Assembly: GCA_947561395.2 (NCBI GenBank)
Contig: OX387191.1
Coordinates: 1,252,501-1,316,500, forward strand
Source of the DNA: Buxus sempervirens
Taxonomy: Eukaryota; Streptophyta; Magnoliopsida; Buxales; Buxaceae
Direction of reading: 5' to 3'
DNA length: 64,000 nt
Part shown: positions 1 to 33,035 of the stretch, one piece after another
Position numbering within the stretch: the first letter of the stretch is position 1
Layout: each line of letters begins with the position of its first letter
Notes under the pieces: model-generated
The model's input: only the letters and a program-made list of their open reading frames with translations
The model's database searches: none
What the model was told of the DNA's origin: nothing
Made by a program: the position numbers and the translations under genes

Positions 1-238
1 TAAATATGTTGCTTTTTTTATTTCCCATGACTATGATCCTTGCATCATATGAACCTGATTTGAAGCTGCACGGGAGATTGCTACTGTAAGTCTAAGTCTT
101 TATCATCTCATCTTTTCAATCCCTTTCAATTGTATGGACCACTTTGCGGTTTGTGTCAGCAGAACAATTTATCAAAAAAAAAAAAATCAGCAGAACAAGG
201 TTCGGTTATAGTCAATTTGAAGGTCAGTCGTACACTGT
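1..238 (+). other. MAP70 downstream flank fragment
   Basis: This stretch matches the sequence that follows mini-MAP70 A (about 4,867-5,105), with only scattered differences. It includes the phrase TTGTATGGACCACTTTGCGG and an A-run. No coding content is supported. It joins directly to a HIPP gene tail near 239, so the boundary is a recombination junction rather than a gene border. Confidence 0.75.
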
Positions 239-377
239 CTATGGAAGGCCATTGCCATGGTATGACGGTGATTATGGAAGGCCATTGCCATGCTATTGTG
301 GTTGTGGAGGACGTAGGGGCCAGGGGAGTTGCGGTGACTACTTTACTGAAGAAAACCACTCATGCATCATCATGTGA
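239..377 (+). pseudogene. HIPP/Pi21-like gene, C-terminal remnant (CIIM type)
   Basis: Only the last part of exon 3 of a HIPP gene is present. The frame reads Gly/Cys-rich segments of the form GRPLPCY, then CGCGG, and ends in the CaaX box CIIM before a stop at 377. It closely matches the end of the whole gene at 39,489-40,625. Exons 1 and 2 and the HMA domain are absent. The upstream side is a MAP70 downstream flank, so the copy was cut by recombination within exon 3. It has no promoter of its own and is most likely dead. Confidence 0.8.
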
Positions 378-1166: not shown

Positions 1167-2476
1167 GTTCACACAATCATTTGCACTTGGTTATTCTTCC
1201 TCATCAAACATATCAGCAAGCAATAATGAAAAAGTCCATTTTAGCTACTTTTCCACGTATGTGGACTCTTGTGAGACGAGTGCTGAGCCTCCTTCAGGCT
1301 GAAGTACTTGTACGTTAAGTTTGTCCATGTGGGTTGCACCATCCACCATTACACCATGGCCCATGGGTACTTAAAGTGACTAATCCATTACTTTTGACGG
1401 TCTTTTTACCAGTGGGATGGCTGTATCTTTAGCCCTTTGCTGATGGCGTATCGGCAAAGGAGTGGACAACCAATCAAGTCACGTCTATATCAATTGCTTT
1501 GCTGATGGCTTATCATACATAGAATTATTTAATCAAGTCACATCTATATCAATTGCTCACTTTAATCTCGAATGATCTTTGTGGAATCTGTCACCTTGTA
1601 CAATTTGATTAGACCTGTTTCTGAAGTCTCCTCAAGTCAAGCTCTTTTCTTTTAATCTCTCACCTTGCCTAATTTGTATGATCTGATTTTTTTTTGGTAA
1701 TGAATTTGTATGATCTGATTAAAAGACTATTTATCAAGCCATGCTATTTAATTATGTATCAAACTAATTTGTGTAATGACTTCTGGCAGCTTATATCCCC
1801 ATCACTAGAAGGCATGGCGCTAACTTCGCTTTTGAGAGGTGCAGGAATCAGATTAACATGAGTGAATATAATAAAATTATGGGGCAATTTCGGTAGCAAT
1901 TTTCTAGGAATATCTTAAGAGTTAGCTATATTTTATACTAGGGGACTACACCCGACTAGCAAAATTCTAATTTGTAATTATTTTTGTTGGTCTCATTTAG
2001 AAAAACACCCCACTATGTCGTTCTATTTGGTTAGTTATGCATATTAGGCATAACAAATCAAAATAGAGAAAAATCTGAGGACAATTTGAGCACAGATTAT
2101 TAGGCTATAATCTTGACAATTCTCTTTATAGATTAGTATAGATTAACATAGATATAGATGTATTTTCGAAGATACGGATATATTTAAACTGAATTTCGTT
2201 AAGATTTTGGTACTAGAAGAGATAATGACAAAGAAGAAGGAGATAATAACCAACGGTTAAAGAAGTCGATTTTTTTGAAATGTGCTTCTGGGTTTTGATT
2301 CTCTCAGCAAAGGAAGGCTCTCTCCCGCTCTTTGCGGTAAATTACTTCAAAGAATTGGCTCTTTAATTTCTCACATATCCGTAATAGATAGCTTCCGTCT
2401 CGTGTATTACTCGATAAATAGGGGTGTTTGTTGTTGGGCTTGTGCTCTCTCCTTCTTCCAGTAAAGATAAAGAAAA
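1167..2476 (+). other. Upstream region and leader of mini-MAP70 A
   Basis: Non-coding, and shared with the regions before the other + strand MAP70 copies (about 33,960-35,071, 41,200-41,901 and 51,190-52,080). From about 2,240 it matches the 5' leader of the complete MAP70 gene (61,137-61,370 on -), including the CTCTCTCCCGCTCTTTGCGG stretch. The promoter is therefore probably derived from MAP70, but no TATA box can be assigned with confidence. Confidence 0.6.
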
Positions 2477-4788
2477 ATGGTGGGCTTGGAGGAACTAGAT
2501 GATGGATACGTCATTCTTCATCAATCAGACCTTGATCCTGGTTATTTTCTCTTCTCAGCTTTATTTGGTGATGGGTTTTCTGCCAAAGCTTGATCGGGTG
2601 TTGTTATTCAACGCTTTTATTTTCTTTCGGATTAATTGTTGAGTTGAAATGGGTTCGAACTATTCTGGGTTTCTTTTATCTCTTTTCACTGTTTATTAAT
2701 GCAAGAGTTTTCAAAGTTGCTTGGTTTATTTGATTTACTGGATTGAAATTTGTCTTCTGCCTACATTGTCCTACAAAATTAACCTTGAACTGTTTATCAG
2801 AATGTAATATTTGCTAGGCACATTTGAAGAAAAAGGGTTATTAAACAGGGACACTTCATCCTATTAAATTAAGAGGAATAGAATTTGTATCTTGTGGGAC
2901 TTTGTATAAAATGGAATTGTTTCTATGCCTAAAATTTTTTTTCCAATACGAATCTGCAAGAAAGATAAAACATATACCACCACATGTGCAAAACATAAAT
3001 TTTAGCCCTCCATACTCTTAAGGAACCCCATCAAATGAGAAATAATGTTTTCTTCATCGTGTACAAATAATCTTTCTTTTTATTCAATTTCTTATCCAAA
3101 CAAACAAAAAATGAAAATTTTGAAGTTGAGTGCAAACACCTGATAAAGTTGTAGTCTTTATTTTATTTCATGTATCATCTTCAAATAATTACTGTTAGCA
3201 AATGGCACAAACTTGTACAATTGTGACATTCGAAGACAAAACCGTACGAGCTTAGACCCAGCGCGGACAATACCTCGCTGGGTTGTGGCAAAAATATTTT
3301 GTATCACACTCTAGAAAGAAGTGAACAAATGTAAATTGGATTTTGATTACATTACTGAAATCGAAAACTTCTGCCATGTTTTAATCTTTAATTAATACCA
3401 GAAAGGGAGCGGGAGATTGCAGTTGCCCATGGTGAAATAAAGGCTTTGAAAGTAACTGAAGCCCCCGCGGATATGACTGTTGAAGAGGTATGTAATATGT
3501 AAAGACAAACAGGGACCTCTATTTGTGGTTAGCTTTTTCTAGACATTATAACAAGTGCTAAGTGTCAAGATATTAAGTAATTAACCGGAATATGTCAACT
3601 CTTGCACTTTGTTTGCTGCTTCATCCAATTGCACTTTGTTTACTTTCTTAGTCTTCTTTTACCCAGCTCAGCAATAAACTTAAGAAGTTGGATGAGAAGC
3701 TTGGGGCCACTGAAAACCTCCTTGAACACAAGGTGCCTCACTCTCTTTAATGGAATTCATTTTATTTGATCTAATCTTGGTTTCAGTTGGTGAAGAGTAA
3801 GATACCCAATTCCTCTTAAATTCAACTACATATTGCAGAATCTTGAAATCAAGAAGCTAAATAATGAGAAGAAAGAAGCATTGGCTGCACAATTTGCTGC
3901 AGAAGCAGCTCTTAGAAGAGTCCATGCAAATCAAAAGGAAGATGTTTTCATACCGGTTGAGTCTATCATTGCCCCACTTGAGGCAGACATTAAAATGTAC
4001 AAGAATGAGGTATGTAGATGAAAAGTGATATTTTAAAACCATTTCTAAGATTTTGAAGTGAGAATGTTAACATGGATAGGCATGCTCATTCTGGAAACAC
4101 TTTTTCCATTTTTCAATTTTAGATTGCATCACTGCAAGAGAATAACAAGGATTTGGAATGTCTCGCTGAGTCAAAGGAGTCAGCTCTGCTTGAAGCGGAC
4201 AGAAATCTGAGAAGTGCTCTTGAAAGGGCTTTAATAGCAGAGGAGGTTATAAACCATAACTTTGAATTGAAGAAACAAATTGAAATCTGCCAGGTATGGT
4301 GCTGCTCGATTCTTTTCTGGGTATAAGCATTGTGAGTTTGAAATCTCCACCCAAACCTTTTTGAATATATAAACCAATAAATCTGCAGGAAAAGAACAGA
4401 ATCCTTGAAAATGCTAATCGTCAGAAGATTGTGGAGGTTGAGAAGCTTAGTAAAACCACAGATGTTTTGCATCTGCAGGCAGAAATTCAAGGGTTAGAAG
4501 TCAAGCTAGCTTTGTCAGATAGAAAAGCAAAGGCTGAAGCACAGATCAAGGTATAAATTCGACCATTAATGATTTTCCACCTGAGTAATTAACATCCTTC
4601 TACTCATTCAATTATTAAGAATTAAAGTTTATTTGATCATTTTACTTCAGGATAAAATGAGATTGAGGATAAAGACACTTGAGGAAGGCTTGAAGAGAGA
4701 AGCTGCAGCAAGGGAAAGAGAAGTGATCTCAAATAGACATTTTCTGCTAAAGCTTCAAGCCCATAGACTTCCATTTATTGTAACTTAA
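2477..4788 (+). CDS. Shortened MAP70-like protein A (285 aa, 7 exons)
   Basis: A reduced relative of the plant microtubule-associated protein MAP70. Exons: 2,477-2,540, 3,402-3,487, 3,667-3,732, 3,839-4,009, 4,123-4,293, 4,389-4,550 and 4,651-4,788. All borders are GT-AG and in phase, giving 858 nt. Exons 2-5 align with those of the complete gene at 56,863-61,136 (for example IIAPLEADIKMYKNE and NHNFELKKQIEICQ). Exon 1 keeps MVGLEELD but loses its second half. Exon 6 joins the start of parental exon 6 to exon 8, with a few codons from the old intron 7 between them (TDVLHLQ). The last exon joins the start of parental exon 9 to part of exon 10 (REAAAREREV) and ends in a new tail. The product would be coiled-coil and lack the conserved middle (EEAVLAGGAAANV, VMPVKQWLEERR) and the 187-codon exon. 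The frame is open throughout, unlike the decayed copies. Expression is unknown; it may still be a pseudogene. Confidence 0.6.
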
Positions 4789-5815
4789 ATTCTTTTACCG
4801 TATGTTTTATTTGGAAAAAATCTACTCATAAATATGTTTATTCTTACTCTTTGTTAAATCTTCGACATTGCATAAATATGTTGATTTTTTTATTTCCCAA
4901 GACTATGATCCTTGCATCATATGAACCTGATTTGAAGCTGCACGGGAGATTACTACTGTCAGTCTAAGTCTGTAACATCTCATCTTTTCAATCCCTTTCA
5001 ATTGTATGGACCACTTTGCGGTTTGTGTCAGCAGAACAATTTATCAAAAAAAAATCAGCAGAACAAGATTCGGTTATAGTCAATTTGAAGGTCAGTCGTA
5101 CACTGTCTACTTCAATTTGTGGACTGGCAGAATTATAGTATTGCCGTGAGAGGAGGAGAACGAATGGAAACTGTGGGGAGGAGAGGGCAACTTGGGGAAG
5201 AATGCCTTGGTTAAAAAGTGCAGAGTATGATAAGTTTCAGCTCTGAATTCCGGAGGAGAGAGGGAAGGATTTAATTTATCTACAGTTGAGCCCGTAAATG
5301 GGCTCAACTGTAGCCGATCGCTGCAGCAGTCCCTAAAATAGTGAAAATTAACATTTTCATTTTTTCAACGTAGGAGAGAGAAAGGATAGAACTACTGCTT
5401 GCTTATTTGGCAAGCAGACAGTTGAGCTTGTAAATGGGCTCAACTGTAAATGAATTGAATCTAAAAAGGAAAGATAAAAAAAAAAGTACCACAGTTGAGC
5501 CCATTTACAGGCTTAATTGTAAATTAATTGAATCTGATAAGGAAAGAGAGAAAAAAAAAAATTTTTTTTTTGGCAAAGAATCTTTTAAGGGCCTTCACAT
5601 CAGCCAGAGCCTTTTGCATGGAAGATCGATTGGAGCATCTACCAATCTTTGTCACGTGTCCCACTCATCAATCATGTCAACTTATCACGATGAAATGGGT
5701 TTTACCCAACCATGATAAGTTGTGTATTATTCAATGATGAGTTGAGTTGTACTTATGATGAACTGAAATGTAACAAATGATGTTGAATTGTATCCTATGA
5801 TAAGTGGGTTGTACC
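4789..5815. other. Spacer after mini-MAP70 A, with hairpin repeat block
   Basis: The first 300 bp recur after every MAP70-like + strand copy. The block from about 5,123 to 5,573 is present after mini-MAP70 A and B and after the copy ending at 44,502, but is missing after the copy ending at 37,460 (junction near 37,795). It holds a strong hairpin at 5,280-5,313 and partial repeats of its arm near 5,419 and 5,489. It is therefore probably an inserted or deleted repeat unit. No gene is seen. Confidence 0.55.
5280..5313. repeat. Perfect 14-bp hairpin
   Basis: The arm CTACAGTTGAGCCC, the loop GTAAAT and the exact reverse complement of the arm make a 34-bp palindrome. Partial copies of the arm follow at about 5,419-5,447 and 5,489-5,517. 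Slightly altered versions occur at about 12,538-12,571 and 45,000-45,033. Confidence 0.85.
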
Positions 5816-6046
5816 TAGTGGTGGAACCAAGACTCCAAATCTGAGGGGGCAAAAAAAAAAATTTCAATTAACACTTCTCATAAAATATAGAAATTTTAAT
5901 GAGTTAGGGGGGCAAACCAGAAATTTTAGAGGGGGCAAAACATAAATTTCAATTAAAACATATAGGACAAAATATATTTTAAATTAAAAAATAAAATTTT
6001 AGGAGGGACAATTGCCCCCTCTAGCTCTAAGGTGGTTCCGCCATTG
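5816..6046. mobile_element. hAT-type MITE
   Basis: The ends TAGTGGTGGAACCA and CAATGGCGGAACCA (reverse complement of the right end) are inverted repeats. An exact 8-bp target duplication, GTTGTACC, lies at 5,808-5,815 and 6,047-6,054. The 231-bp interior is A/T-rich with G-runs and has no coding potential. The 8-bp duplication and short TIRs fit the hAT superfamily. The longer copy at 13,075-13,343 sits at the same place in the duplicated unit, so the insertion predates that duplication. Confidence 0.8.
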
Positions 6047-6982
6047 GTTGTACCCAATGATGAATTTGGTTGTACCGAATAATAAATTAAGGACACATGG
6101 CGAAGATATGTGGACGCTTCAACCGATCTTCCAGCGTTAGGCTCCAACAGAAATGGGACCCGTTGACACCTACTTCTGGCCTCTCTTCCTTTCTACAGCT
6201 CTCTTCCTTGTTGCGGTCAAATTTTGCCGCCTGCACCTGAAGCTTCCGGTGAGAAAACGGAAGAAGGGATCTTAGACTTCATACCAGCCGGAAGAAATAG
6301 AGAAGCCGCATAAATTTGGCTAAACTAGTAGCCGTGTTTTGAGTTCTTAGATTTCCCTTCTTTTTATTTCAGTGGATTCAAACTCTTCACTTTCTTTTTT
6401 ATGGCTTCAGTCACTTCTTGTGAAGGACGTGAAACGACATGAAATGTAGTTTTGAGAAAACTCGGGACATTATTGGCATGTGTGTCCCTGATTTAGTACG
6501 TAACCAGGCAGAATACCCACACCCCACGTGTATGACGGGCTACACGCACCATCAATATACAAATGGGCATCGTTTACGGCGTATGCGGTAGACAGCCCCT
6601 CACATGAATGGTGTGGGGTCCCCCAAGTGAATGATGGGACTCCCAAATGAATGGTAGGCCCTCCCACTGAATGTGAGAGGGTGTATACAACGTATGCTGT
6701 AGAGGATACGAATCGTCAATATATAGATGGGCTGCACTCACTTGGATTCAAGATTGCAAGTCAAAAGGGATTGAAATCGTCTGCTACTTTTTACTGCACC
6801 TAAACCCGATGGAGCATGTCGTGGTTAGAGTTCTTTCCTACAAGTTTTCTGTTAGAAATATAATAAAATATATAAAATTCACCCTACTATCACCATAAGT
6901 TTTTAGTAGGATTGGTGTTCTATACAGTAGGCCCGCACGTAAGGAGAGTATTAATAATGGCCCGCACGTAACGAGAGTATTA
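6047..6982. other. Spacer upstream of HIPP remnant
   Basis: Non-coding spacer shared with 13,344-14,142, 38,100-38,967 and 54,004-54,475. It includes a short tandem duplication of about 32 bp ending near 6,982. No gene is supported. Confidence 0.5.
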
Positions 6983-7183
6983 ATAATGGCGTAGCTAGGA
7001 CTTCCATTTCATTTAGAGTGGGCAAAATAAATCTTTGATCTAAAGATGAAAGATGAACGGTTGTGATTAAAAGGATAGTGAGGGCAAATTAAAAATTTAG
7101 GGTAGGCAAAATTGTCTTTATATTAAATAAACAATAATTTTTTATAATTTTGGGCCACCCTAAGTTCTGTGTAACTCCACCCT
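6983..7183. mobile_element. hAT-like MITE, second family
   Basis: A 201-bp A/T-rich element bounded by GAGTATTA (6,975-6,982) and GAGTGTTA (7,184-7,191), an 8-bp duplication with one difference. The ends are imperfect inverted repeats around GGCGTAGC and GGTGGAGTTAC. Copies occur at equivalent places before other HIPP genes: 14,143-14,338, 38,968-39,168 and 54,476-54,677. The element therefore predates the amplification of this block. Confidence 0.55.
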
Positions 7184-7337
7184 GAGTGTTAAAAAAATAT
7201 ATTAAATATATAAAGTTCACTCCTTATTATCACCTTGAGCTGTTTGTAAGGGTGTTTTCTATTTGAGGAAAAACTATATCATGTGTGTAGGGAGTCATTT
7301 TAATATACCATGATTAGTTGTCTATACGTACAAATAA

Positions 7338-7415
7338 TGACGTCGACGTCAGGATCGTTACGTTGGGACTTTGGATCCTTAACGTAGTTGTCTACACGTA
7401 CAGATAATGACGTCA
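7338..7415 (+). promoter_or_regulatory. ACGT/TGACG cluster upstream of HIPP remnant
   Basis: A perfect 14-bp palindrome TGACGTCGACGTCA lies at 7,338-7,351 and a second TGACGTCA at 7,408-7,415, with several TACGTA cores nearby. Such cores are classical sites for plant bZIP (TGA-type) factors. The cluster lies about 160-240 bp before the HIPP start codon and recurs before two whole genes of the family. Binding is inferred. Confidence 0.5.
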
Positions 7416-7576
7416 GGATCCTTACGTAGTTGCAGTGAGGTGAGGGCACAGTCATGACAAGGTCGTGAGTGGAGTGTGTTAATTGTTATCATGACCTTAA
7501 ACCTCAGTGTACTACTGGCCCTGCATTTCTCTGCAATTCTTAGATTCATCTTCTGATTGTTGTCGGCACTTCGGTG

Positions 7577-8386
7577 ATGGCAGAAAAGGTATGCAGCTCC
7601 CCCTTCTATCTTTCTGACAATTAAGAACAGTTATTTTTTACTACTGTTATGATTGTCCTAGGGAAATATATTCTTGGTTTCTTTCTAAAACTGAGGCCAC
7701 CAATAATGTAATTCCCAATCCCAAAAGCAATTTATTAGAGCATCAATAATAATTGAAAATGGGTTTTTTTTTTTAATTTTAAAGGAAAGCCCACTAAGGC
7801 ATGAATAACCTTAGTGGCACTCCAGCGGTGAGAGGAGGGTTGAGGCAGCCCCTGACCTGTAGATTAATTCCAATAAAAGTACACCAAAAAAGGGGGACAT
7901 AAAACCATACCCCTACAAAACAATAATGAGAAAAATCTAATGCCTAAGGGCATACAAACCAGTTCTATCCTGAAACAAACAAGTTTTAACCTGAGATGAA
8001 GTGACGTTAAGAGACTCATAGGTAAACAGGGTATCCTCATGCATGGTAAACAGGGTTTATCTCATTCAATTTATATATCCTTTTTGTTTTTTTGTTTTCA
8101 CTATATAATCATGTCCTCTGCTTGGAATATTTCTATCAGGATCATCAATTCCGGTATTCCTTCTCTTCACGAAATGTTTCTGTCTTGATTTGGTTGCAGG
8201 TTTCAACATTGGTGCTGAACGTGGACCTTCAATGCTCTCGATGCTACAGGAAGGTCAAGAAGACACTCACCAAATTCCCTGGTGAGCGCGCTCTGTCTCT
8301 CTCTGTCTCTCAAAATATAACTATCCATTCTTATTCAGCCTTTCACTTCCATATCAAATTCTGTTACAAAAGTAAGAACTAATGAA
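7577..8386 (+). pseudogene. HIPP/Pi21-like gene lacking exon 3
   Basis: Exon 1 (7,577-7,588, MAEK) and exon 2 (8,200-8,281, with the CSRC metal-site motif) are intact, with normal splice sites. The sequence then leaves the HIPP pattern near 8,386, just before exon 3 would start, and runs into the leader of mini-MAP70 B. The second half of the HMA domain and the whole Cys-rich tail are therefore missing. Intron 1 is about 260 bp longer than in the other copies because of an insert at roughly 7,763-8,033. A transcript could in principle run into the MAP70-like gene, but no in-frame fusion is evident. Confidence 0.8.
7763..8033. repeat. Insert in intron 1 of HIPP remnant (SINE-like?)
   Basis: About 265 bp absent from the same intron in the other copies. 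It starts with a T-run, which on the - strand would be a poly-A end, and it contains a G/C-richer middle. No clear target duplication is seen. A minus-strand SINE is possible but unproven. Confidence 0.3.
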
Positions 8387-8649
8387 TAAAGAAGGAGGAG
8401 ACAATGACAAAGGAGATAATAACCAACGGTTAAAGAAGTCGATTTTTTTGAAATGTGCTTCTGGGTTTTGATTCTCTCAGCAAAGGAAGGCTCTCTCCCG
8501 CTCTTTGCGGTAAATTACTTCAAAGAATTGGCTCTTTAATTTCTCACATATCCGTAATAGATAGATTCCGTATCGTGTATTACTCGATAAATAGGGGTGT
8601 TTGTTGTTGGGCTTGTGCTCTCTGCTTCTTCCAGTAAAGATAAAGAAAA

Positions 8650-10956
8650 ATGGTGGGCTTGGAGGAACTAGATGATGGATACGTCATTCTTCATCAATCA
8701 GACCTTGATCCTGGTTATTTTTCTCTTCTCAGCTTTATATGGTGATGGGTTTTCTGCTTCTAATCGTGAAGCCAAAGCTTTATTTTATTTTCTTTCGGAT
8801 TAATTCTTGAGTTGAAATGGGTTCGAACTATTCTGGGTTTCTTTTATCTCTTTTTACTGTTTCTTAATGCAAGAGTTTTCAAAGTTGCTTGGTTTATTTG
8901 ATTTACTGGATTGAAATTTGTCTTCTGCCTACATTGTCCTACAAAATTAACCTTGAACTGTTTATCAGAATGTAATATTTGCTAGGCACATTTGAAGAGA
9001 AAGGGTTATTAAACAGGGACACTTCATCCTATTAAATTAAGAGGAATAGAATTTGTATCTTGTGGGACTTTGTATAAAATGGAATTGTTTCTATGCCTAA
9101 AATTTTTTTTCCAATACGAATCTGCAAGAAAGATAAAACATATACCACCACATTTGCAAAACATAAATTTTAGCCCTCCATACTCTTAAGGAACCCCATC
9201 AAATGAGAAATAATGTTTTCTTCATCGTGTACAAATAATCTTTCTTTTTATTCAATTTCTTATCCAAACAAACAAAAAATGAAAATTTTGAAGTTGAGTG
9301 CAAACACCTGATAAAGTTGTAGTCTTTATTTTATTTCATGTATCATCTTCAAATAATTACTGTTAGCAAATGGCACAAACTTGTACAATTGTGACATTCG
9401 AAGACAAAACCGTACGAGCTTAGACCCAGCGCGGACAATACCTCGCTGGGTTGTGGCAAAAATATTTTGTATCACACTCTAGAAAGAAGTGAACAAATGT
9501 AAATTGGATTTTGATTACATTACTGAAATCGAAAACTTCTGCCATGTTTTAATCTTTAATTAATACCAGAAAGGGAGCGGGAGATTGCAGTTGCCCATGG
9601 TGAAATAAAGGCTTTGAAAGTAACTGAAGCCCCCGCGGATATGACTGTTGAAGAGGTATGTAATATGTAAAGACAAACAGGGACCTCTATTTGTGGTTAG
9701 CTTTTTCTAGACATTATAACAAGTGCTAAGTGTCAAGATATTAAGTAATTAACCGGAATATGTCAACTCTTGCACTTTGTTTGCTGCTTCATCCAATTGC
9801 ACTTTGTTTACTTTCTTAGTCTTCTTTTACCCAGCTCAGCAATAAACTTAAGAAGTTGGATGAGAAGCTTGGGGCCACTGAAAACCTCCTTGAACACAAG
9901 GTGCCTCACTCTCTTTAATGGAATTCATTTTATTTGATCTAATCTTGGTTTCAGTTGGTGAAGAGTAAGATACCCAATTCCTCTTAAATTCAACTACATA
10001 TTGCAGAATCTTGAAATCAAGAAGCTAAATAATGAGAAGAAAGAAGCATTGGCTGCACAATTTGCTGCAGAAGCAGCTCTTAGAAGAGTCCATGCAAATC
10101 AAAAGGAAGATGTTTTCATACCGGTTGAGTCTATCATTGCCCCACTTGAGGCAGACATTAAAATGTACAAGAATGAGGTATGTAGATGAAAAGTGATATT
10201 TTAAAACCATTTCTAAGATTTTGAAGTGAGAATGTTAACATGGATAGGCATGCTCATTCTGGAAACACTTTTTCCATTTTTCAATTTTAGATTGCATCAC
10301 TGCAAGAGAATAACAAGGATTTGGAATGTCTCGCTGAGTCAAAGGAGTCAGCTCTGCTTGAAGCGGACAGAAATCTGAGAAGTGCTCTTGAAAGGGCTTT
10401 AATAGCAGAGGAGGTTATAAACCATAACTTTGAATTGAAGAAACAAATTGAAATCTGCCAGGTATGGTGCTGCTCGATTCTTTTCTGGGTATAAGCATTG
10501 TGAGTTTGAAATCTCCACCCAAACCTTTTTGAATATATAAACCAATAAATCTGCAGGAAAAGAACAGAATCCTTGAAAATGCTAATCGTCAGAAGATTGT
10601 GGAGGTTGAGAAGCTTAGTAAAACCACAGATGTTTTGCATCTGCAGGCAGAAATTCAAGGGTTAGAAGTCAAGCTAGCTTTGTCAGATAGAAAAGCAAAG
10701 GCTGAAGCACAGATCAAGGTATAAATTCGACCATTAATGATTTTCCACCTGAGTAATTAACATCCTTCTACTCATTCAATTATTAAGAATTAAAGTTTAT
10801 TTGATCATTTTACTTCAGGATAAAATGAGATTGAGGATAAAGACACTTGAGGAAGGCTTGAAGAGAGAAGCTGCAGCAAGGGAAAGAGAAGTGATCTCAA
10901 ATAGACATTTTCTGCTAAAGCTTCAAGCCCATAGACTTCCATTTATTGTAACTTAA
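8650..10956 (+). CDS. Shortened MAP70-like protein B (285 aa, 7 exons)
   Basis: A near-identical twin of the gene at 2,477-4,788, lying 6,168 bp downstream. Exons: 8,650-8,713, 9,570-9,655, 9,835-9,900, 10,007-10,177, 10,291-10,461, 10,557-10,718 and 10,819-10,956. By eye the exons match twin A and the introns differ at only a few sites, so the duplication is recent or the pair has been homogenised. The predicted product is the same coiled-coil MAP70 derivative without the conserved middle and the large exon. The gene starts 264 bp after the truncated HIPP copy, so its upstream DNA differs from that of twin A and contains HIPP intron 2 sequence. Whether it is transcribed is not visible. Confidence 0.58.
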
Positions 10957-16256: not shown

Positions 16257-16903
16257 GTTTCAACATTGGTGCTGAACGTGGACCTTCAATGCTCTCGATG
16301 CTACAGGAAGGTCAAGAAGACACTCACCAAATTCCCTGGTGAGCGCTCTCTCTCTCTCTCAAAATATATCTATCCATTCTTATACAGCCTTTCACTTCCA
16401 CAAATTCTGTTACAAAACTAAGAACTAATGAATAAAACTGAGTTTCTATGGATTGTTAAATTTTGGGAACATTAGAGATCCAAGTCCAGATATTCGACGA
16501 GAAGCAAAACACCGTGAAGATCAGCGGTCCCTTTTGTTGTCCACACAAGTTCGCGAGGAAACTATGCTGTAAAGCTGGGAAATCGATCAAAAGCATCGAG
16601 ATCATTGAGGAAGAGAAGAAGAAAGATCAAGAGATTCAAGACAAGACAAATCAAAAGCAAACAGATACCGAAAACGAAAAGAAGAAGTCGACCGATAAAA
16701 TTACGCCTGATCACAAACCGACTGTAGAAAGCAAGCCTCCGATTTCGTGGTTGGAATATGTCATGGTCCATGTTGCCATGGAGGGGGGCCATGTTCTTGA
16801 GGTTGTGGAAGGCCGTTGCGATGCTATGATGATTGTAAAAGGCCATTGTCATGCTATGATGGTTGTAGAGGATGTAGCGGTCAAGGGGGTGGAAGGCCAT
16901 TGC
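16257..16903 (+). pseudogene. HIPP/Pi21-like gene, no exon 1, cut by Copia LTR
   Basis: Exon 2 (16,257-16,338, CSRC) and the start of exon 3 (from 16,476) are clear. Exon 1 has been deleted: near 15,940 the leader jumps straight into intron 1, with CAATT shared at the junction. In exon 3 the basic linker is longer than in the other copies (DQEIQDKTNQKQTDTE). A one-base loss at the PPI segment, relative to 19,911-19,925, puts the Cys-rich repeats in another frame that reads VEGHCHAMM-like. The copy is then interrupted at 16,904 by a Copia LTR within the GGCCATTGC repeats. Not expected to be functional. Confidence 0.85.
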
Positions 16904-19150: not shown

Positions 19151-20357
19151 ATGGCAGAAAAGGTATGCAACTCCCCCTTCTATCTTTCTGACAATTAAGA
19201 ACATTATTTCTTACTACTGTTATGATTGTCCTTGGGAAATATATTCTTGGTTTCTTTCTAAAACTGAGGCCACCAATAATGTAATTCCCAATCCCAAATT
19301 ATTATAGCCTCAATATTAATTGAAAATGGGTTTCTAGCGTATCCTCATGCCTGGTAAACAGGGTTTATCTCATTCAATTTATATATCCATTTTGTTTTTT
19401 CGTTTTCACTATATAATCATGTCCTCTGCTTGGAATATTTCTATCAATATCATCAATTCCGGTATTCCTTCTCTTCACGAAATGTCTCTGTCTTGATTTG
19501 GTTGCAGGTTTCAACATTGGTGCTGAACGTGGACCTTCAATGCTCTCGATGCTACGGGAAGGTCAAGAAGACACTCACCAAATTCCCTGGTGAGCGCGCG
19601 CTCTCTCTCTCTCAAAATATATCTATCCATTCTTATTCAGCCTTTCACTTCCATATAAAATTCTGTTACAAAAGTAAGAACTAATGAATAAAACTGAGTT
19701 TCTATGGATTGTTAAATTTTGGGAACATTAGAGATCCAAGTCCAGATATTCGACGACAAGCAAAACACCGTGAAGATCAGTGGTCCCTTTTTTTGTCCAC
19801 ACAAGTTCGCGAAGAAACTGTGCTGTAAAGCTGGGAAATCGATCAAAAGTATCGAGATCATTGAGGACAAGAAGAAGCCTCCTGATCCCCCACCGCATGT
19901 AGAAAGCAAGCCTCCGATTTACGTGGTCGGAATATTTCATGGTCCATGTTGCCATGGAGGGGGGCCATGTTCTCGAGGTTGTGGAAGGCCATTGCCATGC
20001 TATGATGATTGTAAAAGGCCATTGCCATGCTATGATGGTTGTAGAGGATGTAGCGGTCAAGGGTGTGGAAGGCCATTGCCATTGCCATTGCCATGCTATG
20101 ATGATTGTAAAAGGCCATTGCCATGCTATGGTGGTTGTAGAGGATGTAGCGGTGAAGGGTGTGGAAGGCCATTGCCATTGCCATTGCCATGGCATGATGA
20201 TTGTGAAAGGCCATTGCCATGCTATGATGGTTGTAGAGGATGTAGCGGTGAAGGGTGTGGAAGGCCATTGCCATTGCCATGGCATGATGATTGTGGAGGA
20301 TGCAGGGGTCCCGGGTGTGGCTGTGGCTGTGAAGAAAACTCATGCAAAACGATGTGA
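19151..20357 (+). CDS. HIPP/Pi21-like protein, expanded Cys-rich tail (239 aa)
   Basis: Heavy-metal-associated isoprenylated plant protein. Exons 19,151-19,162, 19,508-19,589 and 19,732-20,357 join in phase at GT-AG borders. Residues 5 to about 75 form an HMA fold with the site C16-S-R-C19 and later a KLCCKAGKSIKSIEI strand, as in rice Pi21. A short Pro-rich linker (KKPPDPPPH) follows. The tail, from about residue 100, repeats a Cys/Gly/Pro unit about three and a half times (RPLPCYDDC, then CRGCSGEGCG). The last four residues, CKTM, form a CaaX box, so farnesylation and membrane attachment are likely. Family roles are metal or partner binding; Pi21 affects blast susceptibility in rice. The tail repeats are DNA repeats with unit lengths divisible by three, so other frames are also open. 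Residue 21 is G where the sister copies have R. The promoter differs from the other copies. It lies convergent to the MAP70 3' fragment at 21,050-22,066. Confidence 0.85.
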
Positions 20358-21049
20358 AATATCTATCGTCATGAATGTTCTTTTCTATGCGTATTGGCAT
20401 GGATCCCTAGTGGTTTTGTTGTCCAAGAGATAAACAAGGCCTCGTGGTCCTATGTATGTAAAGCTTACCTATATGCTTAAGCTTTTAGGTGTGGTTTGAA
20501 ATATAATTGTATTAGTTACGGCCTTACAGGGGCTACAGCTGCAAAAATGGGTTGTGTTTTGTTGCCTGATTAGTTAAGAAATCAGACCCAAGTATGAACA
20601 GGAGCAGCAATCATCAGATATATCTCAAGCATTTAATTTCTACATAAACACAAATTACATTATATTTCATTGATGTAAAAGGCAATCCGAGACTTCTTCG
20701 CCGCCAAACATTATTTATTATTCTCCCTATTTCCACATTCTCCCCACCACAAACATATTTTTAGCAACCATAACAAATCTTTTTCATATGTACAAGAGTG
20801 ATCTGAGACGGCATGGTTGATGAACCAAATGCTTCCAAGCTCCCCTTTCACTTCATAGGTTTCGGCGACTTCAAAACCCTGCAATTGTAGTTTAATGAAG
20901 TCCAACAATTTTAGCAACCATAACAATTTCTTCTTTTTAAGTCTCAACATTTTTAAGTCCAAAAATCTTACCGTAATATCCTAGATCAAGGTTTGTGAAG
21001 AATAAATATTTACACCATAGAGAAAATTAATAATTCTAAGGGCTTGAAG
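20358..21049. other. Region between convergent HIPP and MAP70 fragment
   Basis: The 3' flanks of the HIPP gene (+) and of the MAP70 fragment (-). It corresponds to 56,007-56,862, without the 62-bp tandem duplication found there. Confidence 0.6.
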
Positions 21050-22066
21050 CTAAGCTTTTCGCAGAGAATGTATATTTACAGACCTTTTTGATAATTTTGC
21101 ATTTCTTATTATTTGCTTTGACAACACTTCTCTTTCCCTTGCTGCAGCTTCTCCCTTCATCTTCTTAGACTCAACTTCTATGGACTTTGTCAGTGCATCA
21201 ACCTTCTTTATGAGCATCTGCCAAGATACATGAGCTCAAATACTCAATATACTTTGAAGAGAGAAACAAAGAAACAGAGAAAGAAGATACCGCCAATGGC
21301 ATATCTCTACCTTGATTTCTTCATCTTTTGCATTCAAACTTTCATCTTTCCCCTCACCAGATTTTCTCAAATTGATGACCTCTTTTTGAAGCCTATCATA
21401 CAGAAATCCTGAGACCATATCTTCACTGCCACCATCTGCACTTGCATTATTTTGCAACTCTGTCTCATTGCATCCCTTTGTTGTAATTTCTCCAGAGACT
21501 ACCACCTCATCAAAGTTCTCATTGGTGTTGGCCTTCACTTCTGTATTCACCTTTCCAACGTTTCCTAGCAACTTAATTCTCGATGCCCACAAATTCTTTT
21601 TTATCATGTTTTCTCCAGTTAAATATTTCATTTTTAAGGTACCTACTCGTTTCAATTTTTCCGTTTCGGTCTCCACATTAGGCTGATGCAAAGGATGGCC
21701 TCTGTTGCTGGTAACAGAAGCCCTTGGCTGAGACGTGGATCTCTTTCTAAATGACAGAGCGCCTGACTTCTCTGTTTTTTGTGATTCATAAGATACAGTG
21801 GGATGGACTGACAAACTTGATACATGCTTTAGGCCTTCTTCAAGCGTCTTTAGCCTCAATCTCAGTTTATCCTGCAGTATAATATGCAAATAAAATCTAA
21901 TTCTGCAGAATTGAATGAGAAAGATTTCAAAATTATCCAGGTGGAAGATTAGTGATCAAATTTGTACCTTGATCTGTGCTTCAGCCTTTATTGTTCTATC
22001 TGGCAAAACTAGCTTGTCTTTTAACCGTTGAATTTCGGCCTACAAATGCAAGATTGAATTAACATT
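21050..22066 (-). pseudogene. MAP70 gene, last three exons only
   Basis: Counterparts of exons 8 (21,968-22,039), 9 (21,311-21,871) and 10 (21,050-21,217) of the complete gene at 56,863-61,136. They have the same splice borders and a 561-nt exon 9 of equal length. The frames are still open. Exon 10 has an in-frame 18-nt loss that removes TKVEDT. Similarity stops at about 22,066, inside intron 7, so exons 1-7 and the promoter are gone. It is the shadow of a duplicated HIPP(+)/MAP70(-) pair and should not make a MAP70 protein. It could only be expressed as an exon donor to something upstream. Confidence 0.85.
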
Positions 22067-22774
22067 ATGAGTTGAACGGATCATTATCGGGTTTAATGGA
22101 TTATTATTGGGCTAGATTTGAGTTGATCCGAATACGAATGGGTTACTAAATCCCCAACCCGAAGCCGACCGAACTATTACACGGGTCAACTCGAACCCAT
22201 TTATTCGGGTTGGATTGGACATGATAGGTCAATTTTTTCCCGGTCTAATTTTGTGTCAAGGGTTTTAGAAACAAGAAAACAAATTTATGATTAAAGTGAA
22301 AATCAACATTTCTATGCTACTTTTACTTTTGAATTACTTTGAAAAATAAAAAAAACACTTTTGAAAAACGTTACCAAACGGTACCGAATCGTCTTCTCTG
22401 CTTGCTGCTCCTCCGATTCCTTCGTCTTCTACACTTCTTGACATCTAAATTATGAAGCACAAGAGTTTGCCCATCCCTTCACTTTGGTGTAACGACAACT
22501 CGCGTGTTTCAGTAAGAGAGAGAGAGATGGTAATGGACGGAGGTGCAAGGACACGTTGGTCGTAATCGAAAAGTCAAATTGTCCCCTTTGAAGTAGCTTC
22601 TTAGTTAAGAAGAGTTGAGACATCGTTCTCCCTTTTTTTTTCATCCGAGTCAGATGGTACACTTGTAAAAGAAGTGTCATGTTTGGTACCCCAGTGTTGG
22701 TTTGTGTTCATCCCATCGTATCAAAAGTCCATTCACTACTTTTCCATGTATTTGGAGTCTTGTGATGAGTCATC
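22067..22774. other. Spacer before Copia element
   Basis: Its first 200 bp contain degenerate CGGGTTG / CAACCCG runs like the ends of the hAT element at 14,450, so they may be a hAT remnant. The last 60 bp resemble HIPP downstream sequence near 1,225-1,275. No gene is seen. Confidence 0.4.
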
Positions 22775-25700: not shown

Positions 25701-28700
25701 GGGATACATACGGCGATCTACCTCAACCAACTCAAACGGACCCTACCTTTCGACGATGGCGCACTGACAACACTATTGTTAAAGGTTGGCTGATTAATTC
25801 CATGGACTCCTCTCTTATCAGTAACTTCATTCGGTTCCCAACAACCAAGTTGGTGTGGGATGCAATTGCTACTACATATTTTGACGGCAGCGACTCTTCC
25901 CAGGTATATGATCTCCGGAGACGTGTGACACGCCTTAAATAGGCTGGTGGCTCTCTTGAAAAATTCTACAATGATCTCCAAGGCCTTTGGCATGAAATCG
26001 ACTTCCGTCGTCCAAACCCGATGGAATGCCCAACCGATATTCAAACATTACCATACCCTAGTTCAGGAAGATTGGGTATATGTCTTCTTGGATGCTCTTG
26101 ATGATTGCTTAGACCACATCAGGAGTGATGTTTTGCAAATAAAGCCATTCCCAACAGTGGAGCAAGCCTATGCCCACGTTCGGAGGGAAGCTCTTCGTCA
26201 AGTTGTGATGACGACCAGTAGCCTTGGTGATATGCCAGGAGCGGGTCTGGCATCCAAGAGTTTCAAACATGGCTCACAGTCTCAAGCACCCTTCGGGTCT
26301 CTCTCTTTACATGGCAGCAAATCCGGCTCCAACACCAAATCCTGAGCCACCTATGATGGCAATAAATGCTCTCACTGTGGGAGTACAAAGCACAATCGTG
26401 AGACTTGTTTCAAGCTTCATGGGTATCCCGATTGGTGGCACGAACTCCAAGCTCAGAAGCACCGTAATGGAGGTGGGAATGAGGATAACACCGGCAAGGC
26501 TGCGGTGGCTGCAGCAGAACCACATCTGTCCCTTATTCCAACCGATATTTCAAACTCGAACCCAGGTAATGCTCTACTTGGTTCTAATCGGGATGCTGAC
26601 GGCAATGCTTGGATACTTGATTCTGGCGCAACGGACCATATGACATTTGACGTCAATGATTTTTCACAGCACTCCTCTCCTCGGCGAACTAGCATTGCCA
26701 CTGCTAATGGAGGCATTTCTTCGGTAACAGGGGCTGGAACTGTGATGCTGTCACCAGCCCTACCATCATCTAATACTTTGCTCGTGCCTTCTCTATCTCA
26801 CAAGTTACTATCTGTGAGTCAAGTTACTCAAGACTTGAATGCTCATTTATCCTGCGTTTTGTCTTGTTCAGGATATTCTCACCAAGGAGATCATTGGGCG
26901 TGGTACTAAGAAGGGGGGGCTCTATTATATGGAAGATTTCAGTGTTGGCCGAGCTCACCACATGCACCACTCAAGCAACCTCAAAGTGGAACAGATTCTA
27001 CTTTGGCACCGTCAGTTAGGCCATCCTTCGTTTGGATATCTGCAACATGTGTTTCCTGATTTATTTTCGGGTATGAAAAATTTTGATTTCAAATGTGAGA
27101 CTTGCATTTTAGCTAAAAGTCATCGAGTCACTTATCCGTTGAGTATGAATGAGAGTTATATTCCTTTTGCCTTGATTCACTCGGATGTTTGGGGTCCTTC
27201 CCCAAAGTCTACTCTGTCAGGTTTCCGCTGGTTTGTGATATTTGTTGATGATTGTACTCGAATGACTTGGATCTATCTATTGAAACATAAAGATGAGGTT
27301 GTTCGTGTCTTTCAATCATTTCATACAATGATTGAGACTCAGTTCTCTGCTAAGCTTTGAACACTTCGATCTGATAATGGTGGGGAGTACGTGAATCAAC
27401 AGTTACGTGACTATTTCCAACACCATGGACTATTCATGAGACCTCATGTCCCCAAACTCCACAGCAAAATGGTATTGCCGAGCGCAAGAATCATCACATC
27501 CTTGAAATTGCTCGAGCCTTGTTACTTGGAGCTCATGTACCCAGCCACCACTGGGCTGATGCTGTTGCTACGGCTGCCCATCTCATTAACCGCATGCCTT
27601 CAAAGGTTATTGGGTTCAAGACTCCGCTACAGACCTTGTCAACCTATGTGCCATTACCCACAGTACTAATGCTTCGGCCTCGAGTCTTTGGTTTTGTTGC
27701 GTTTGTTCACCGCCACAAGAACCAACGCATGAAGCTTGATCCCTGTGCCGTTCGGTGTCTTTTTTTGGGATACGGTATACACCAAAAAGGGTACCGCTGC
27801 TACGACCCAACTACTCGACACACCTATGTGACTATGGATGTCACGTTCCTTGAATCTGACACTCTCTACTCTCCTGCCACATCCGACTCCTCTCTTCAGG
27901 GGGAGACACAAGTAGAAGAGATGAATTGGTTGACATTTGACTGGGTCAAGGATACTGATACAACACCGAATGCTCCTCAGTCGATCTTTGAAGAACCTAG
28001 TCCAGAGATGAATGCTCCTCAGTCGATCATTGAAGAACCTAATCCAGAGATGACACCTTCAGACACTGATGTAGCAGTACCCCCCCACCCCACACGTTAG
28101 TATCCACAGACCCATCTCCGGAGAATATCATTGAGGTAAGCACCCCTATCGTACCTCACACTTCTAATAATGTGGATACTTTTGTTGGCTATGAGTTACC
28201 TTTCAGGAACAATCGGGGCAAACCCCCAAACAGATATTCTCCGGAACTAGAGGACCAAAGATCAAGATATCCGATTGTTAATTATGTTTCTACAAAGGAG
28301 TTGTCCGAACCTCTCAAGAACTTTCTGAATGAACTCTCCTCCCACCATATCCCCACAAGTGTTGAAGAGGCTTTGGAAGACCCTAGATGGATCCAAGCTA
28401 TGAAGGAAGAAATGGAGGCATTATTGAAAAATGAGACGTGGACTCTTGCTCCCTTACCAAAAGGCCAAAAAACAGTGGGGTGTAAGTGGGTATTCTCCAT
28501 CAAGTACAAAGCCGATGGATCAGTTGAAAGGTACAAAGCAAGACTGGTGGCAAAGGGCTATACGCAAACCTATGGCATAGACTATCAAGAAACGTTCTCG
28601 CCTGTGGCTAAGTTGAGTACTGTCAGGGTTCTACTATCTCTTGCAGCAAATCTCGATTGTCCATTACACCAGTTGGATGTTAAAAACGCCTTTCTCCATG

Positions 28701-30081
28701 GAGATCTTGAAGAAGAAATCTACATGGATGTCCCTCCAGGATATATGGCAAGCTCTAAAGCTAAGATGGTGTGCAAACTACAACGAACTATGTATGGCTT
28801 GAAGCAATCTCCTAAAGCGTGGTTTGGGCGCTTGAACTCGGCAATGAGGAAATATGGCTTTCAACAAAGCAACTCAGACCATACTCTATTCTTAAAGCAT
28901 CACCGGGGTAAGATAACAGCTTTGATAGTCTATGTAGATGATATGATCATTACAGGTGACAACTCAGAGGAAATAGCAAGACTTTAAGAGCAATTGGTCA
29001 CAGAATTTGAGATGAAAAATCTAGGACTCAAATATTTTCTGGGAATTGAAGTTGCTAGGTCAAAGCAAGGCATATTCCTTTCCCAACGAAAATATATCTT
29101 GGATTTATTATCAGAAGTTGGATTACTGGATTGTAAGCCTGCAGATACACCAATAATCCAAAATGACAAGCTTGGAGAATACTCGGACCAAGTGCCAACA
29201 GACAAGGGAAGGTACCAGATATTAGTTGGAAAACTTATTTATCTTTCTCATACACGGCCTGGCATCGCCTATTCAGTGAGTGTAGTAAGTCAATTCATGC
29301 ACTGTCCAAGTGAAGATCATATGAATGTGGTAATTCGGATTCTTCGATACCTAAAGTCCTCCCCCGGAAAAGGACTTATGTTTACAAGAAACAGTCACCT
29401 ACAAGTGGAAGGGTACACAGATGCTGATTGGGCGGGAAATATCTCCGATAGAAAATCCACCTCAGGGTATTTCACGTTTGTTGGAGGGAACCTGGTTACA
29501 TGGAGAAGTAAGAAACAAAAGGTGGTTGCATTATCAAGTGCCGAAGCCGAGTTTCGTGGGATGGCTAACGGTCTTTGTGAACTTCTCTGGCTTCGAAGGT
29601 TATTAACTGAAATTGGCTTTGCTCCTAGCTGTGAGATGGACCTATTCTGTGATAACAAGGCTGCAATTGACATTTCTCATAATCCAGTCCAGCATGACCG
29701 GACCAAGCACGTAGAAGTAGACCGGCACTTCATCAAACAAAATCTTGAAGCCAAGATAATTCGATTCCCGTTTGTTAAATTCGAAGATTAGTTGGCAGAC
29801 ATACTTACAAAAGCTGTATGTAGCAGAAGCTTCTACAACTCACTTGGCAAGTTGGGCATCCAAGATCTTTATGCACCAACTTGAGGGGGAGTGTTGGCGT
29901 GAGTTGTTCTCCATGAGATTGTAGGAGGGAATTTTGGGATACACCACCAATGTAATCAATTAAGCCGTGATAGATGTATAGCCATATTTAGAAGTAGCCA
30001 TAGTTAGAAGTTTCTGTTTTGTTAAATACCCATTCATTCGTGTAAAGAGACATTTTGAAGAAAGTTGATATATTTTTGTCA
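22775..30081 (+). mobile_element. Copia-type LTR retrotransposon, broken, with nested LTR
   Basis: 5' LTR 22,775-22,970 and 3' LTR 29,892-30,081, both TGTTGG to GTCA, flanked by the duplication TCATC (22,770-22,774 and 30,082-30,086). The primer site TGGTATCGGAG follows the 5' LTR, and the GAGGGGGAG polypurine tract precedes the 3' LTR. The Copia order is visible: gag (split by the nested LTR; continues about 25,540-26,500), protease about 26,600-26,900, integrase about 26,990-27,800, reverse transcriptase about 28,370-28,990, RNase H about 29,000-29,880. It is broken at roughly half a dozen or more points. The LTRs differ by about four substitutions and one small indel (about 2%), so the insertion is moderately young. 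Without the nested insert it is about 4.9 kb, a normal Copia length. Confidence 0.92.
23098..25536. mobile_element. Nested solo LTR, 2.4 kb, probably Ty3/Gypsy
   Basis: A 2,439-bp insertion in the Copia gag region. It starts TGTTAGCACCTG and ends GGTGCGCACA, with the 5-bp duplication CTAGC at 23,093-23,097 and 25,537-25,541. It has no internal retroelement genes. The great length and the GTGGCGACTCC motif near the right end suggest a Ty3/Gypsy family with long LTRs; the lineage is inferred. It is younger than the Copia insertion. Confidence 0.75.
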
Positions 30082-30152
30082 TCATCAGCTTGATCTTTTC
30101 CATCGTATTATGGTTTGTTGTATCTGGATTTCAGATCTTGAACTCCTCAACA

Positions 30153-30380
30153 ATGGCAGCGAAGGTATGCAACTCACCCTGTATCTTTCTGAGTTCATCA
30201 TTTGTTCTGTACAATTTTATGGCTGTTTTGATTTTCCTTGGGAAAACTATTCTTAGGTCGCTTTTTAGAACTGGGGTTCACCGGTAATGCAACTCCGATC
30301 AAAAAATACTAGAACAATAGAAATTGAAAATGCGTTTCTAGTTTTCAAGCAATAATCCTCATGCCTACGAAACAGGGTCT
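30153..30380 (+). pseudogene. HIPP exon 1 and partial intron 1, remnant
   Basis: ATGGCAGCGAAG followed by GTATGCAACTC reproduces HIPP exon 1 (here MAAK) and its splice donor, and the next 200 bp resemble intron 1 of the other copies. At about 30,380 the sequence jumps to the HIPP 3' untranslated region (compare 413), so exons 2 and 3 are deleted. It is more diverged than the other remnants, which suggests an older copy. The Copia element sits about 70 bp upstream, in what would be its promoter. Confidence 0.7.
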
Positions 30381-31173
30381 ATATGCAAAAGATGCCATGT
30401 GGTATTTGTTTATAGGTTTTATTGTGCCAAAGATAAAATAATGTTTGGTGATCCTGTTCCTATGTACTGTTCTGTGTCTTTGTGATTATTTTAATGAAGA
30501 AATAACGACCGTGCAATTGCAACTCATCAAATGGTTCTTACAAGGGGAAAATTGAGCATGGGGGATGGGTTAGTGGTGCAAGTTCTTATTGCTGCTTCAA
30601 TCAAATTTCCTCACTGCCCATATAGTGAAGCAAAGAAAGAAAATAAGACGGAAGATCATTTATTAAGCACATTGATGTGTTATGAGAGATGAACTAGCTA
30701 AGATTAAAACTTGAAAGATGTCCAACATGGGATCAAGCCAAGTTTATTTATTTTTGAGGTTTCATGTATTTCAGTTAGAAAAAGGGTTAGCAAAAGCCTC
30801 ATATGTTAGCTGAGCTAAGCTCTTTCTTGTTAGATGAAAACCTTGTTACAAGAGCTATGGCCACAACCCAATACAACCAATTAATATTTTGGTTCACACA
30901 ATCATTTGCACTTCGGTTTTTTTTTTGGGTGGAAATTTGCACTTGGTTATTCTTCCTCAACAAACATCAGCAAGCAATAATGAAAATGTCCTGGTGGCAG
31001 GTCTGATCTGATGGGCGTCATTGAAATCCCAATGAACCTCTGAATCACCGGATCTTGTTTCATTAGAGAACTTTTTGAAAGAATGGGTGACAGTCCAGTT
31101 CTAGGTCCAGCCCAATATAACACCCTCAGATTTTGGTTGTGGATTGTGAAGTTCGAGGTGTTATAGAGAAACC
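30381..31173 (+). other. HIPP 3' flank and spacer
   Basis: Shared with 40,680-41,200 and 48,348-49,143. No gene is seen. Confidence 0.6.
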
Positions 31174-33035
31174 AGCCTTTTCAGTTTTGGTAGCACGCCG
31201 CACGCTGCGGTAGGGATGAGCAACGGGTCGTGCCGGCCCGGCACGGCACGGCACGTGCACTGTAGCATGCAGTACACGTGCCGTGCCGGGCCGGGGGTCC
31301 TGGCCTCTCGGCCCGTTTGGGCACGGCCCGCCAGGGCACGCGGGCTCGCGTGCCGGCCCGGGCCCGCGCGTGCCTAAGCGGGCTGGCCCGCGCGCCCAGA
31401 CGGGCTGGCCTGCCGTGGGCCCGCTGGGCACGCTCCAACAGCCCAACTAGCTTAAATAGCCAAAAATTGTCCATAAGAAGATTCGAACCTTGTCCAAGGG
31501 ATTGAAAGTCTGTCTCTTTAACCATTAGGACAGATCAACTTCTTGCAACAATAGTATCATAATTAAAATATTTTACCTAAACATTAAGGATACCACATGA
31601 ATGTTGAAACTCTTATATAATCATTTAAAGCTAAGAAAATAACTAAGTATAAATAAACCCAAAAAACTGTTACAAAATCTCCAATTAAATATATTTGTTA
31701 AGTCCATAGTTTTAATTAGACTACTTTAAGTCTTTAATGGATGTAATTTATATTTTTTTGAGCAAAATATATCCAAATATGTGTAAAACAATTTTGTGAA
31801 TAATAAAAATATTTTTCAGAATTTTTTAATGATTTTTTTGGATTTTTTGGTGATTTTTTTGAATTTTTTCTTTATTTTTTTTAAAAAAATTAAGTTTAAT
31901 ATTAGCCCGCCGGCCCGGCGGGCTAGGCCCGACACGGCACGCCTGCTGGGGCGTGCCGTGCCGGGCTGGGGTAATGGGGCAAACGGGCCTGGCATGCCGC
32001 GGCCCGCCAGGCCCGCGGCACGTCAGGCCCGCGGCCCGCCCGAGCACGCCTTAGGCGTGCCGGGCTGGCCCGCCGCCCATACCTACGCTGCGGCGTGCAG
32101 CCGAAAAATCGATATTATTCGGCTAGCGGCACATTTCGCTAGCCGAACATCGCACCTCTTAGTTTCCCAAGAGGTGCCGAAGCGTTTCGACGAAAAACAT
32201 TGAAATTTCGATGCGTTTTGTTGAAATGCTTTTTTTTTTTTTAATTTTCAGTCGCACACACGTGCGCGTGAAACGAAGCCCTTAAGTCGTCGATTTGGGC
32301 AAAAATTTCGCCCAAATCAACAAGTTTTCGACATAAACGAAGGAGAATGCGATTTTCTTGATTTTTTCTTCAAATCTCAACCATTTCTTGTGAAATCAAA
32401 ACCAAACTTCATCTTTTCTCAAGATCTTCGTTCTACAAGCAAACTAGGCACGATTTGGAGTTGTATTGGAGGTCATACGACGTTCGTGCTCGATCCTAAA
32501 GAAGATAAACATTTATTTCTTCTATTTTATAGGCTTAAATTTATTAGATTAAGCTGAAATTAAGATATGTTATGCATCGGCACCCAATCTATCGATGGGT
32601 GTTGTTACCTATTATATATTTTTTTCAAAATTAATTTTTTTAATTATTTGTGACGAAATTAATTAAAAATAGGGAAAAATATAAAAAAAATACAAAAAAT
32701 TATGTTATAAATTAGTAAAAATTACTGTAAATGCCATGTATAATTATCTATAAATATTTGTTTGAAAATTAATTTATTGATTATTTGCGCATGTGCTTAT
32801 GTTATTCATGTATTATAAACTTCTAATTATCTTATTTATCAATAATCTTTGATTTTTAGCCAAAAAAACAAAAAATTGATTTCGGTTGAAATTTCGCAGC
32901 ATGTATTGGTGTGCCGACGAAATTTTGACCGAAATTGAAAATTGCCTATTTTTCCCCCGTTTCGTTGATATTTTGTCGGCGTACTGATTTTTTCAGGAAA
33001 CAGCACGCCCAGCGGTACCGATATTGAAAACCTTG
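31174..33035. mobile_element. Mutator-like element, non-autonomous, with nested hAT
   Basis: Flanks AGAGAAACC (31,165-31,173) and AGAGAAACG (33,036-33,044) look like a 9-bp target duplication with one change. The ends are degenerate inverted repeats (CCTTTTCAGTTTTGGTAGCA against AAGGTTTTCAATATCGGTAC). The interior has no clear transposase and is A/T-rich. The duplicate at 49,144-50,244 lacks the 875-bp hAT insert. The family is inferred from duplication length and end similarity to 874-1,166. Confidence 0.55.
31211..32085. mobile_element. GC-rich non-autonomous hAT element, 875 bp
   Basis: Exact 8-bp target duplication CGCTGCGG at 31,203-31,210 and 32,086-32,093. The ends TAGGGATGAGCAACGGG and TAGGTATGGGCGGCGGG are inverted repeats. 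Both ends carry many GGCCCG / GGCACG repeats, with an A/T-rich centre. The paralogous segment near 49,170 is empty, so the insertion followed the segmental duplication. A tRNA-like stretch lies at about 31,470-31,540 on -. Confidence 0.82.

Follow-up and report, generated by a model that had tools for sequence, protein, structure and literature searches.

MAP70 proteins form a family unique to plants (PMC10643555), and engineered deletions of one member, MAP70-5, are among the described systems closest to the locus analysed here. According to the passages of PMC10643555 that deal with these deletions, MAP70-5 without coils 3 and 4 (delta-CC34) still binds and bends microtubules in leaf cells. 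Without coils 1 and 2, microtubule binding is kept and bending is absent, and in partial deletions of coil 2 binding also remains and bending is abolished. MAP70-5 and MAP70-1 are named there as interacting paralogues. A second comparison is with microProteins, described in parts of PMC7534434 and PMC5381583 as small single-domain relatives of larger proteins with which they form non-productive complexes.

In Buxus sempervirens, naturally shortened MAP70-like genes are found at a single locus on contig C14. The window is the whole 64,000-nucleotide stretch analysed (G000:C14:1252501-1316500), and the genome searched comprises 676.5 Mb on 247 contigs. Six copies of the short design, U, A, B, C, D and E, are present at the locus. 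Five had been reported in an earlier note on this DNA; the sixth, U, lies upstream of the window and is also open. Copy A (2477-4788, plus strand) is a shortened MAP70-like gene with seven exons (2477-2540, 3402-3487, 3667-3732, 3839-4009, 4123-4293, 4389-4550 and 4651-4788) that total 858 nt, or 285 codons and a stop. Copy B (8650-10956, plus strand) displays the same frame in exons 8650-8713, 9570-9655, 9835-9900, 10007-10177, 10291-10461, 10557-10718 and 10819-10956. Exon lengths in both copies are 64, 86, 66, 171, 171, 162 and 138 nt. As had been claimed, phase is kept at every junction and the two predicted proteins are identical; all six introns in each copy are GT..AG.

The 285-aa product scores 299.6 bits against the Pfam MAP70 profile (PF07058), where the cut-off for membership is 27. 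Two stretches match the 554-position profile, the best being 26-215, and the full architecture of ∼70 kDa is not present. A search of Protein Data Bank chains with the 285-aa protein gave no match at E up to 0.01. The gene model is least certain at the splicing of intron 1, because the exon-1 donor, CTG/GTTATT in all six copies, departs from what we take to be the usual plant consensus; judged by its letters this donor looks weak and is doubtful. The corresponding donor in P, the full-length neighbour described below, is AAG/GTCTGG, which is no textbook site either. Within intron 1 of A, positions 3229-3285 are the remnant of a repeat present on many contigs. U and C carry a longer form of this repeat (+79 nt), a difference that separates them from A, B and D.

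The two open copies had been presented as twins. Both are open, but they do not amount to double evidence: A and B differ at 0 of 858 exon positions and 0 of 593 positions in introns 2-6, and since the coding parts are identical, their common open frame is one observation. The absence of any exon difference rules out two independent open copies. Mismatch-free alignment to B extends from 2987 to 4883 in A, about 1.9 kb. In the first stretch (A 2248-2630), differences number 3/378 between B and E, 5/378 between B and C, and 23/377 between A and B, so that up to ∼8800 B is closer to C and E than to A. From A 2631 onward B is nearest to A (5/370 differences, then 0). Because its start follows C and E and its remainder follows A, B is a composite formed by recent duplication or conversion. 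The mismatch-free ∼1.9 kb is also what an assembly duplication artefact with only one real copy would produce. Such an artefact is, however, scarcely credible: the alignable stretch of A and B is bounded on both sides by different flanks, the two copies diverge in its first part (25/855 in intron 1, plus indels), and U, C and D show that copying at this locus is real.

The second independent observation of the open frame, A (=B) being the first, is provided by U. Its exons lie at G000:C14:1250031-1252416, just upstream of the window, and only its 3′ flank (window 1-241, plus strand) falls inside. U is open across 858 nt with no indel or stop. It differs from A at 21/858 exon positions; GT/AG sites are intact and there is no exon indel in either copy. 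The odds of an open frame were obtained as a Poisson expectation of stops, indels and splice losses calibrated on introns, U being assigned half of the A-U intron indels. By luck alone, U would have remained open with a probability of 0.08 with introns 2-6 (one indel) or 0.02 with all introns (seven indels), and for the whole A-U path the value is 0.014 (introns 2-6) or 0.0003 (all introns). These values speak for an open frame that is more than chance, and the diverged U strengthens the case.

No full-length gene found in this genome is closer to the short copies than P (61136-56863, minus strand), a MAP70-like gene at the right end of the window with 10 exons, GT/AG borders and a 570-aa open frame that scores 737.4 bits against Pfam MAP70. 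Comparison with P bears out the claim that the conserved centre and the largest exon are missing from the short copies. Exon 1 of A is 64 nt long versus 97 in P, i.e. 33 nt shorter. Exon 6 of A (4389-4550, plus strand) is fused: what remains of P exon 6 runs into the final bases of P intron 7 and then into P exon 8. Codon 216, at the exon 6/8 joint, is CAG in A, B, U and C where P has the acceptor TAG, and because of this substitution the frame is not ended at the joint. The last exon of A (4651-4788, plus strand) is also fused. It joins the first 45 nt of P exon 9, all that the short copies keep of this largest exon (561 nt in P), to P exon 10. P's stop is lost, and a new C-terminal tail of 18 aa (counted by eye) extends into the former 3′ UTR. 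A thus retains the N-terminal half of P (residues 33-219), part of its middle (299-337) and a short remainder close to the C-terminus (531-542, the last range by eye) and is without residues 220-298 and 338-530 (the last residues by eye).

These differences amount to four losses from a P-like ancestor. One removed 33 nt of exon 1; a second sets in late in exon 6 and takes in almost the whole of intron 7, a third covers the bulk of exon 9 and the beginning of exon 10, and a fourth took part of the 3′ end of exon 10, including the stop. The first three were frame-preserving. The short gene would then have multiplied, the six copies being partly overwritten among themselves via segmental duplication or conversion. 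We infer this order of deletion and copying events from comparison of the copies. A retro-copy (processed pseudogene) origin is ruled out by the six introns kept in A, B, U and C. Among copies of the short design dS is 0.046-0.064, and between the short copies and P it is 0.21-0.24. Judged by these distances, the design is not brand new, and the suggestion of a newly formed gene type holds only in a relative sense.

P also has a recent partial duplicate, F (20466-22068, minus strand), which covers its 3′ part (exons 8-10) with 1567 of 1603 aligned bases identical and the exons open. F has an in-frame loss of 18 nt in the last exon, and the remainder of the P gene is absent.

Three further copies have decayed, in agreement with the earlier note. 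Copy C (35072-37460, plus strand) is of the short design and retains all six introns, and is broken by a stop (E33*) and two frameshifts (exon 3, +1; exon 6, -1). Copy D (41902-44502, plus strand) carries an insert in intron 2 and has a deletion that begins late in exon 4, removes exons 5 and 6 and reaches into intron 6. Copy E (53077-54003, plus strand) has only the 5′ region, exon 1 and part of intron 1, where it ends. The insert in D (43004-43997) and a similar element in the 5′ region of E (52081-53076) are ∼1 kb each and 98% alike, with terminal direct repeats of 271-272 nt and 5-nt target duplications (AACTC and ATAAT, respectively); we take them to be TRIM-like.

Other repeats are interspersed at the locus. 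A 3.5-kb stretch is duplicated between MAP70 copies (27701-31202 and 45675-49172, 98% identical). An exon found in seven copies interspersed with the short MAP70 copies (8200-8280, 16257-16337, 19508-19588, 39839-39919 and 55346-55426, plus two upstream of the window) presumably resembles an exon of heavy-metal-associated-domain proteins. The unit containing copy B begins at ∼8400, just past the copy of this exon at 8200-8280.

Over the whole genome, 44 exon-sized matches to Pfam MAP70 (PF07058) were found (44/44 candidates scored), all on contigs C1, C6, C10 and C14; the first three of these contigs hold three other MAP70s. A nucleotide search with window positions 3839-4788 gave 13 matches (11/11 candidates scored). 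C14 holds 11 of them, and C1 and C6 have a single match apiece. With positions 2243-3487 there were at least 68 matches (40 of 372 candidates scored); off C14, those scored consist of a ∼150-nt stretch on C8 and the repeat within intron 1. Five places on C8 (L015, L016, L017; C8:9734956-9875200) carry ∼150 nt of the 5′ region of the short copies. Four of the C8 stretches are 89-92% identical to A and less so to P, and the match stops 10 nt into exon 1. These nucleotide searches, with 40/372 candidates scored for 2243-3487, gave no further short-design copy in this genome beyond U and A-E. A, B and U most likely belong to a small family of MAP70 genes with internal deletions that is confined to this one locus. 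Among the matches listed in a literature search there was no title on a short MAP70 gene, which is weak evidence.

Selection on the short copies is relaxed, with a point estimate of dN/dS below 1. By the Nei-Gojobori method with all codons, A and U display dN 0.018 and dS 0.052, a ratio of 0.35 (one-sided Fisher p=0.019), and the ratios are 0.40 for A-C and 0.33 for U-C. Ratios versus P are 0.58 (A-P), 0.52 (U-P) and 0.60 (C-P). With core codons only, values are 0.44 for A-U (p=0.078), 0.58 for A-C (p=0.23) and 0.42 for U-C (p=0.05). A codon likelihood model with its own transition bias was fitted to four sequences, and omega of the A, U and C tips was tested against 1. This omega is 0.42 over 285 codons (2dlnL 5.27, p=0.022) and 0.49 over the codons shared with P (p=0.072); for the A and U tips alone, p is 0.072 with all codons and 0.074 with shared codons. 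A comparison with the decayed copies had been proposed. C alone has an omega of 0.40 (all codons) or 0.66 (shared codons), which is inseparable from A and U; C is therefore not a clean neutral control, and the use of decayed copies for that purpose was rejected.

A seven-sequence codon model over 226 codons includes three full-length paralogues (L012-L014). In this model omega is 0.53 for the short-copy tips (p=0.13 versus 1) and 0.05 for the full-length paralogues, and equality of the two values is rejected at ∼1e-7. Constraint on the short copies is thus about tenfold weaker than in full MAP70. The model distinguishes omega of P neither from that of the paralogues (p=0.19) nor from unity (p=0.098). 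For the stem of the short copies an omega of 1 fits (p=0.58), unlike 0.05 (p ∼1e-9), although this stem value is ill-determined: the stem and the P branch trade off, the paralogues are distant, and as a shortcut the L014 branch was tied to half of the root branch.

Exon changes were also compared with those in introns, comparisons that are blurred by conversion among the copies and by uneven divergence along the unit. Synonymous changes make up 14/33 of exon changes, against the 24.5% predicted by the mutation spectrum of the introns (p=0.018), and 9/21 for A and U together (p=0.05). By branch none is significant (A 3/8, p=0.31; U 6/13, p=0.07; C 5/12, p=0.15). Exons are less diverged (33/857) than introns 2-6 (37/585, p=0.034); against all introns (123/1426) p is 7e-6, but intron 1 holds high-divergence patches. 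Over all these tests, the short copies are probably under genuine but weak constraint, or were so until not long ago, with strict neutrality also plausible.

The main alternative is a neutrally decaying array of unprocessed MAP70 pseudogenes, in which the copies are young and homogenised by conversion and duplication, and A, B and U have so far escaped damage. Like unprocessed (duplicated) pseudogenes, the short copies are clustered, intron-bearing and partly deleted, and half of them are disabled. A disabling change is present in C, and D and E have lost exons; unlike unprocessed pseudogenes, A, B and U have no disabling frame change. Such pseudogenes would show a dN/dS of ∼1 since truncation. 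The observed values, 0.42-0.53 with p of 0.02-0.13 depending on codons and tree, are neither near 1 nor clearly below it. Decay is consistent with the breakage already present in three of six copies, with a shared-codon omega not significantly below 1, with a stem that fits neutrality rather than the omega of full MAP70 (stem and P branch separating poorly), and with A and B being a single survivor; the leftover low omega could date from a function that has ended, as may hold for C. Evidence to the contrary comes from the all-codon tests (p ∼0.02) and from U and A, which are both open across 2.4% exon divergence, with a chance of 0.014 or less. Taken together, a decaying array falls somewhat short of an even chance. 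The first choice, at about one half, is a short MAP70 under weak selection, with the decaying array close behind.

A further possibility is that the locus works through RNA, be it antisense, an siRNA source or a decoy for P, and that the frame is incidental. The short copies and P are encoded on opposite strands, and ten inverted pairs of stretches between them and P, 173-224 nt in length, are 85-90% complementary. Under an RNA-only role, however, the excess of synonymous changes in A and U and the lack of exon indels are unexpected, and such a role is very improbable.

On the preferred reading, which is about evenly poised, the intact copies would remain coding for a coiled-coil protein of 285 aa, kept by weak purifying selection, as a family of internally deleted MAP70s whose product would compete by binding without bending. 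The short copies would be transcribed, spliced and translated, and the mechanism is modelled on MAP70-5. The predicted protein would attach to microtubules and/or pair with full MAP70 via its retained coils. Binding without bending is proposed because the end of the second coiled coil is probably missing. By a heptad proxy, a rough hint not clearly above shuffles, coil 2 of P extends to about residue 275; as A is without P residues 220-298, it probably lacks the end of this coil. The heptad maximum of P (0.34) passes only the 95th percentile of shuffles and that of A (0.31) does not, which leaves the coil borders unfixed. By analogy, the short MAP70 may therefore bind microtubules or full MAP70 without bending, and would act as a mild competitor of the full protein. 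A stronger form of the proposal appears possible but doubtful: a lineage-specific, functioning short MAP70 that would serve as a bind-without-bend partner or competitor, would have arisen as one in-frame deletion followed another, with reading through the tail of an intron among these changes, and would be selected in at least two diverged copies. The observation made in the earlier note is confirmed, and its interpretation is partly supported.

A shares exon borders, the coiled-coil N-terminal half and the Pfam match with the MAP70 family (PF07058) and with P, its nearest member. It differs in its length (285 aa versus 570), the new 18-aa tail and an omega of ∼0.5 versus ∼0.05. As in the MAP70-5 deletions delta-CC34 and delta-CC2c, to the extent that PMC10643555 describes them, the N-terminal half is kept and middle or C-terminal parts are removed. 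Unlike these constructs, A is natural and combines several deletions at once, and its coil borders are not exactly mapped. A resembles microProteins, as outlined in PMC7534434 and PMC5381583, in being a shortened relative that could form non-productive complexes with a larger protein. It is larger than these, however (285 aa); a rough count gives it more than one coil region in place of a single domain, and its pairing with MAP70 is putative.

If the short copies are untranslated, the locus is an ordinary duplicate array in decay. If they are translated, they would represent a plant microtubule-bending protein shortened by natural deletion, in which constraint is roughly ten times weaker than in full-length relatives in the same genome, and the conversion of a coiled-coil microtubule protein into a regulator of its parent would become directly testable.
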